This document shows positions 32,940-33,560 of a DNA stretch of 33,560 nucleotides, in pieces; position 1 is the first letter of the stretch, and each line of letters starts with the position of its first letter. A program made the position numbers and the translations under genes. Source of the DNA: Bacillota bacterium (GTDB lineage Bacteria; Bacillota; Sulfobacillia; Sulfobacillales; Sulfobacillaceae); assembly GCA_023475835.1 (NCBI GenBank), contig JAMCVM010000166.1, forward strand, positions 1-33,560, in the 5' to 3' direction. Under the pieces are notes generated by a model. It was not told the DNA's origin. It saw only the letters and a program-made list of their open reading frames with translations, and made no database searches.

Positions 32940-33310
32940 TCCGGCGAAGTGAGATTTGCGGTCGAGGGAGCGGCCCGATGGGTCTTGGGTCTTGGCCGTA
33001 GAATCCCATGTAGCATGGGTAAAGCGCAGGCCCAATGCTGAGCCCGCTTCGGGAAGGGTCGCCGCCAACTGGGTCGACCCTTTTTCGTTCCTTTCAGGGC
33101 CTGTGAGCCCCTCGCCGCTATCCGTGGTGGCCATGGGTGGACAGAGGATGAAAAGGTGCGACGCCGTCACGGATTCGACCGCTCTCAGGCGCTCCAATCA
33201 CAATGAACCCACCGCCTCGATGCGTGATTGAATTCCTTCAGCGAACCGAGGCGTAGGATCCTTTCATTGGCTGACGAACCGAATCCAGGGATAAGGGTAA
33301 ATAACTGCTA
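32940..33310. other. Intergenic stretch with a terminator and no supported gene
   Basis: Open frames on both strands here (32956-33231 plus, 32826-33197 minus) have Arg/Ser/Pro-rich composition without family motifs or ribosome binding sites and look like chance. A 6-bp hairpin CCCATG-TAG-CATGGG (33006-33020) and a terminator (33054-33085) are the only structures seen. The DNA becomes A/T-rich from about 33290, near the inferred end of a mobile element. Confidence 0.4.
33054..33085 (+). terminator. Intrinsic terminator downstream of the OsmC-family gene
   Basis: AAGGGTCG (33054-33061) pairs with CGACCCTT (33075-33082) around a 13-nt loop, and the stem runs into a T tract (33081-33085). It lies 114 nt past the OsmC-family stop. 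Confidence 0.6.
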
Positions 33311-33321
33311 AAACAAATCAC

Positions 33322-33346
33322 ATGATGTCTATGTACATCGCATCAT
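33322..33346 (+). mobile_element. Possible left-end hairpin of an IS200/IS605-superfamily element
   Basis: Two alternative small hairpins overlap here. GATGT (33324-33328) pairs with ACATC (33335-33339) around a 6-nt loop, and ATGATG (33322-33327) pairs with CATCAT (33341-33346). IS200/IS605-type elements, including IscB carriers, have short imperfect subterminal hairpins at their ends instead of terminal inverted repeats. The A/T-rich context and the structured RNA that follows support this, but neither a transposase nor the far end is in the window. Confidence 0.35.
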
Positions 33347-33360
33347 AAGGTGTATAATAT

Positions 33361-33560
33361 GGGCGTGGCGGGGATGTTCCCCGCCGGAGCAAGCCAGCTA
33401 CCGGACTGCGTGACCGGCTAAGAGGAAACGCCTCTGGGAAATCCGCCGTGCATCGCACGGAGTACCAGCGTCGGGGCCCGCTTTACCCGCAAGGGAACGG
33501 GACAGGCAAGAAGGTGGCGGTTGGGGGCCGAATCCCCCCTGTCGCCGGAAGGAAACTGAG
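33361..33560 (+). ncRNA. Highly structured RNA, candidate HEARO / IscB omega-RNA, cut by the right edge
   Basis: A perfect TATAAT (33353-33358) is followed by a chain of hairpins. GGCGGGGA-TGT-TCCCCGCC spans 33367-33385. AGAGG-AAACG-CCTCT spans 33421-33435, and CCGTGC-ATC-GCACGG spans 33446-33460. CCCG/CGGG (33477-33480 with 33498-33501) encloses a CCC-GCAA-GGG tetraloop stem (33486-33495). GGCG/CGCC (33516-33519 with 33543-33546) encloses GGGGG/CCCCC. No open frame fits this stretch. The order of stems and single-stranded pieces such as CTGGGAAATCC and GGAAGGAAACTGAG recall HEARO RNAs, which lie just upstream of iscB genes and act as guide RNAs. The call is from memory of the family and needs a covariance search; iscB itself would lie beyond the window. 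Confidence 0.5.

Follow-up and report, generated by a model that had tools for sequence, protein, structure and literature searches.

Organization of the right edge of the window

The window, a 33,560-nucleotide stretch of a Bacillota genome (contig G000:C140), stops within a repeated element of about 500–550 bp. The left end of the element lies at position 33298, its hairpin-rich part continues past 33560, and the contig end falls inside the repeat. The final ~265 bases of the window matched many other sites of the same genome, and the copies in this genome were 89–99% identical over long stretches. Complete copies (e.g., L002, L005, L006, and L008) measured about 500–550 bp and had common ends and unrelated flanks: they start GGG-TAAATAACTGCTAAAACAAATC, with T or C after GGG, and finish with GCTTAAGCACGTTATAGC-GG. 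A collection of plasmids contained no match to the element. At the far side of the window, three consecutive tRNA genes occupy 2134–2373 on the minus strand.

All parts of the window copy were read on the plus strand. The left flank ends in AGGG (33294–33297), a TAM-like position in which GG (33296–33297) is the exchange dinucleotide. The left end (LE) of the element runs from 33298 to a deletion junction at 33364 and is 96–99% identical in many copies. It includes TATAAT (33353–33358), the probable -10 box of a putative LE promoter, which is conserved in all LE copies listed, and ATGGGC (33359–33364), a remnant of the tnpA start; copies that bear tnpA go on with ATGGGTATGCTAGTGAATATTGG. Next comes a structured 5′ domain of ~175 nt (33365–33539), delimited by alignments and covariation. 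It is specific to this lineage, in which it separates the tnpB stop from the reRNA core. The domain opens with a hairpin (33366–33386, arms TGGCGGGGA and TCCCCGCCG; helix 1, 98.5% of cells paired), followed by a multibranched core (33397–33518) that is closed by GCTACC (33397–33402) and GGTGGC (33513–33518). Within this core, a stem at 33477–33501 carries a GCAA tetraloop (33489–33492). The ordinary IS607 reRNA core starts with TGTCGCCGGAAGGAAACTGAG at 33540–33560, and its remainder lies beyond the contig end. The first-pass annotation had described a TATAAT followed by G/C-rich stems and no coding frame at this edge; these features were located as given above, and no ORF of more than 53 aa overlaps the element.

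The element belongs to the IS607 family

Judged by its sequence relatives, the window element is of the IS607 family and of the TnpB kind, not of the IscB/HEARO kind. In full-length relatives (L111 and L112), the order is tnpA, tnpB, RNA, and right end (RE). The tnpA products of L111 and L122 combine an N-terminal MerR-like HTH with a Resolvase domain, as does IS607 TnpA. TnpB, 481 aa long in the window lineage, possesses a Cas12f1-like TNB domain in these relatives and yielded sequence matches to TnpB and Cas12f structures. Its residues D250, E355, and D436 (RuvC D-E-D) as well as the zinc cysteines C408, C411, C426, and C429 were invariant in eight relatives. The relatives thus carry the residues that characterize TnpB; the window's own genome shows only a tnpB remnant of ~56 aa, and an intact cognate tnpB was not found in the assembly. 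One copy in this genome, L047, retains pieces of both genes, the IS607 tnpA N-terminus and the tnpB C-terminus, in the interval that separates its left end from the RNA. Copies with tnpA starts also exist in the window's genome, as is evident from five contigs that end inside tnpA (L204, L205, L206, L208, and L210); the window copy lacks a tnpA gene.

The ends of the element were fixed by an interrupted gene. In G005 (two contigs), a full-length IS607 element of 2516 bp (L111:918–3380) interrupts the potassium-ATPase gene kdpB. In silico removal of 2516 bp, leaving one GG, restored a frame of 696 codons, whose alignment to KdpB shows no gap at the junction. The restoration therefore fixes both ends and shows exchange at a dinucleotide, GG. 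Based on these ends, the 3′ end of the RNA touches the flanking DNA, which is the guide position of TnpB RNAs. As in other IS607 elements, the exchange leaves no target duplication, as seen in kdpB and in the GG present at all 33 left junctions and most right junctions. Among the 33 distinct left junctions, positions -1 and -2 were always G, position -3 was G in 32, and position -4 was G or A in all. These (R)GGG flanks are compatible with published G-rich TAMs, but part of the (R)GGG pattern may reflect insertion preference. The right flanks were all different beyond GG.

Structure and conservation of the 5′ domain

The stems of the window copy pair 33366–33374 with 33378–33386, 33397–33402 with 33513–33518, 33407–33412 with 33503–33508, 33446–33451 with 33455–33460, 33477–33488 with 33493–33501, and 33523–33527 with 33534–33538. 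Because the window segment folds no more favourably than shuffled sequence does (z = -0.09), stem density by itself is not evidence of a functional RNA; the energy of a whole copy was only mildly favourable (z = -2.83). Covariation, unlike energy, sets the stretch apart from shuffled sequence. In an alignment of 15 homologues, 97.7% of the cells paired and both sides had changed at 14 pairs, versus 6.1 (SD 1.4) in shuffles and 0–4 with slid partners. Such changes occurred in each of helices 2, 3, 5, and 6 of the multibranched core, including three pairs of helix 6, the GCAA stem, and the compensatory changes span genera and families. The window copy scored 168 bits with covariance model R1, which was built partly from that copy. 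Conservation of the domain was 82–92%, versus 72–79% at fourfold sites of tnpB, in three pairwise comparisons only. The domain matched no Rfam family at E ≤ 10.

The covariance model of the domain matched 10 of the 154 genomes of the class; among 398 genomes of the phylum, only the source genome and G005 matched. A DNA pattern of the domain was present in nine contigs among 84,980 species genomes; each of the nine comes from a MAG that bears the label Bacillota, Clostridiales, or Sulfobacillus benefaciens. The domain was thus found only in Bacillota. Since these searches used strict filters or an exact pattern, diverged forms are under-counted. Diverged forms of the domain occur in G013, G001, G010, and G037. 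Four copies (L120, L121, L122, and L123) contain an extra unit of ~75 nt ending in CATAAGCATGGGG within the 5′ domain; the unit is single in the first three and a tandem double in L123 (G004:C24).

Layout of the guide RNA

The RNA has the arrangement of an IS607 reRNA: a structured RNA on the 3′ side of tnpB that ends at RE, with the flank in the position of the guide. Published IS607 reRNAs are in addition reported to require a pseudoknot. TnpB relatives at ~50% identity (L139, L140, and L141) encode a compact form of this RNA, laid out as GTCGCCGGAAGGAG ... CCCGGC ... GCGAACAAT – stem – GAGCGG. It starts inside the 3′ end of tnpB, which the core motif overlaps, and runs on to RE. The ~175-nt domain is absent from these relatives. 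In the window lineage, the tnpB stop comes earlier and ~175 nt of structured RNA separate it from the reRNA core; the distance from the first hairpin to RE is 372–471 nt. The terminal stem beside RE is preserved with sequences that differ among end classes. The duplex of an end's own arms averaged -10.5 kcal/mol, versus -6.1 (SD 0.36) when the arms were randomly exchanged between sequences, in a set of 46 automatically collected ends of which a few are spurious. Where the downstream side was assembled, the domain occurred only together with the reRNA core and RE, as judged by the GCGAA and RE columns, the automatic core column being a loose motif. In L002, one loop within the reRNA core holds an extra 46-nt insertion with a hairpin (alignment A1, columns 312–357); it also occurs in L084 and is common to copies of two genera (G000 and G004).

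The first-pass annotation had proposed the guide RNA of a nuclease encoded by an insertion sequence. The kind of RNA stands, but the family, the nuclease, and the side of the guide do not. The guide had been placed at about 33330–33365, a stretch that cannot serve as such because it is the element's own LE and is nearly identical among copies. The guide position is instead the right flank, beyond the reach of the window contig. Similarly, a nuclease gene had been expected beyond the window, whereas the full-length relatives carry tnpB upstream of the RNA.

Copies without protein genes retain the RNA

Between TATAAT and the first hairpin, the sequence takes at least six forms in the window's own genome (the L002 type, the window, the L018, L019, and L027 types, and L060), in addition to the remnant-bearing L047. 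Further deletion forms were found in relatives (L088, L089, L084, and L100). In every form, the break falls before GTGGCGG or in its first 1–2 bases, leaving the RNA essentially whole behind promoter-like LE sequence. The assembled copies thus display many distinct deletion junctions, none of which extends into the RNA, though the junctions may not all be independent. Several TnpB-less deletion copies therefore retain the whole RNA. Two diverged copies, L033 and L099, have the multibranched part but not the first hairpin. The count omits copies whose interiors are unassembled, and these could hide losses of the domain; the copy on C169, seemingly without the RNA, contains a run of N at an assembly gap and was likewise omitted. 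One element copy has six degenerate CRISPR-like direct repeats of 37 nt, spaced 66–80 nt apart, about 200 nt to its right, at L006:2210–2598 (G000:C92).

Proposed mechanism and comparison with known systems

Taken together, the sequence data indicate that 33298–33560 is very probably the left half of a non-autonomous IS607 element that consists of LE, a long TnpB reRNA, and RE, and from which tnpA and tnpB were deleted. In the proposed mechanism, TnpA of an intact copy would move elements of the window type through exchange at GG. The LE promoter would drive the RNA, whose 3′ end would leave RE and enter the flank, providing the guide. TnpB from another element would bind the scaffold in trans and cut the emptied site beside (R)GGG, such that copy-back is favoured. 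The ~175-nt domain would be a lineage-specific 5′ accessory to the scaffold that sets the reRNA core apart from the tnpB ORF. What is known of TnpB biology makes the guide-RNA reading very likely (PMC10711439, PMC11061315).

The nearest described systems resemble the window lineage in part. The reRNA of the IS607 TnpB of ISXfa1 likewise belongs to an IS607 element that inserts at a matching dinucleotide, and extends from the right end past the transposon boundary; it is ~150 nt long, versus 372–471 nt in the window lineage with its added 5′ domain (PMC10711439). The RAGATH-18-derived reRNA of IS607 TnpBs such as ISFba1 also lies wholly downstream of tnpB, and the AG-rich TAM published for these TnpBs at LE, AGGAG or GAGGG (PMC11061315), is in line with the (R)GGG at the TAM-like position here. 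The ISFba1-type RNA is 184 nt and its TnpB is 387 aa (PMC11061315), whereas the TnpB of the window lineage has 481 aa. A search of its RNA at E ≤ 10 against 4227 Rfam families, assumed to include the RAGATH-18 model, gave no RAGATH-18 match. The unusual part is therefore the extra folded domain of ~175 bases before an ordinary guide RNA, for which an earlier description in literature outside open access is possible.

If the proposal is correct, this TnpB guide RNA is 2–3 times longer than the cited IS607 examples, and an added domain has uncoupled it from the protein gene so that it spread as protein-less copies. Sub-lineages with and without the domain offer a direct test of the effect of extra scaffold RNA on TnpB, a question that bears on the evolution of TnpB RNAs toward Cas12 guide RNAs. 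A bolder version, which we consider unlikely, is that the domain is a previously undescribed RNA module, captured by an IS607 TnpB system, which enables TnpB-less copies to express stable guide RNA under their own LE promoter and to exploit TnpB in trans. A small number of nucleases would then serve an array of guides spread across the genome.

Alternative explanations

The favoured role of the domain is that of a 5′ accessory that would extend the reRNA scaffold. Its main rival, to which we assign a somewhat low probability, is that the domain is a separate RNA device outside the mature TnpB-bound RNA, such as a processing or self-cleaving module or a regulator of the tnpB mRNA, with the rest of the proposal unchanged. 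Indeed, the domain forms its own closed multibranched unit, the compact relatives manage without it, and the published IS607 reRNAs are ~150 and 184 nt (PMC10711439, PMC11061315). However, no Rfam ribozyme or regulator was matched at E ≤ 10, and the domain is kept in tnpB-less copies, in which regulation of a tnpB mRNA would be useless. A further argument against a separate device is that the reRNA core and RE accompany the domain wherever sequence downstream of it was assembled. An HDV-like ribozyme, considered on account of a CTAAGG motif, was rejected: none of the ribozymes in Rfam matched, and CTAAGG is not an invariant motif.

The copies may also be dead repeats that persist via transposition alone, with an RNA that has no present function in its own genome. 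The high identity of the own-genome copies, which may be recent, and the failure to find an assembled intact tnpB are consistent with this reading. The compensatory changes across genera and families argue against it, as does the fact that every assembled internal deletion stops before the RNA, and we consider it quite improbable.

A group I or group II intron, or an IStron, would equally be a structured RNA in a transposon, and the first hairpin starts with GUGGCG, loosely like the 5′ end of a group II intron. This possibility is very remote: no Rfam intron family matched at E ≤ 10, an intron-encoded protein is absent, and no copy precisely free of the domain was found in the window lineage.

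Least credible of all is the candidate named in the first-pass annotation, a HEARO omega-RNA belonging to an IscB element, even though the genome does contain iscB genes with HEARO. The comparison with HEARO (RF02033) is apt in that both are structured guide RNAs of transposon nucleases that can lack the protein gene, but in HEARO the guide is 5′ and the nuclease gene downstream, whereas the window lineage has another RNA family and nuclease, with the guide 3′ and the gene upstream. HEARO was not matched at E ≤ 10 on either 33200–33560 or a complete copy, and it was refuted by the same covariance scan, in which a positive control beside a genuine iscB of this genome scored 131 bits (E = 2.9e-29). 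The iscB predicted just downstream did not appear either: the complete copies that were read run into unrelated DNA without iscB. Elsewhere in the genome, L048:543–759 (G000:C173) is a genuine HEARO RNA and L048:812–2125 an intact-looking iscB of 437 aa with RRXRR and HNH domains; eight more RRXRR matches, mostly partial, occur in the same genome.
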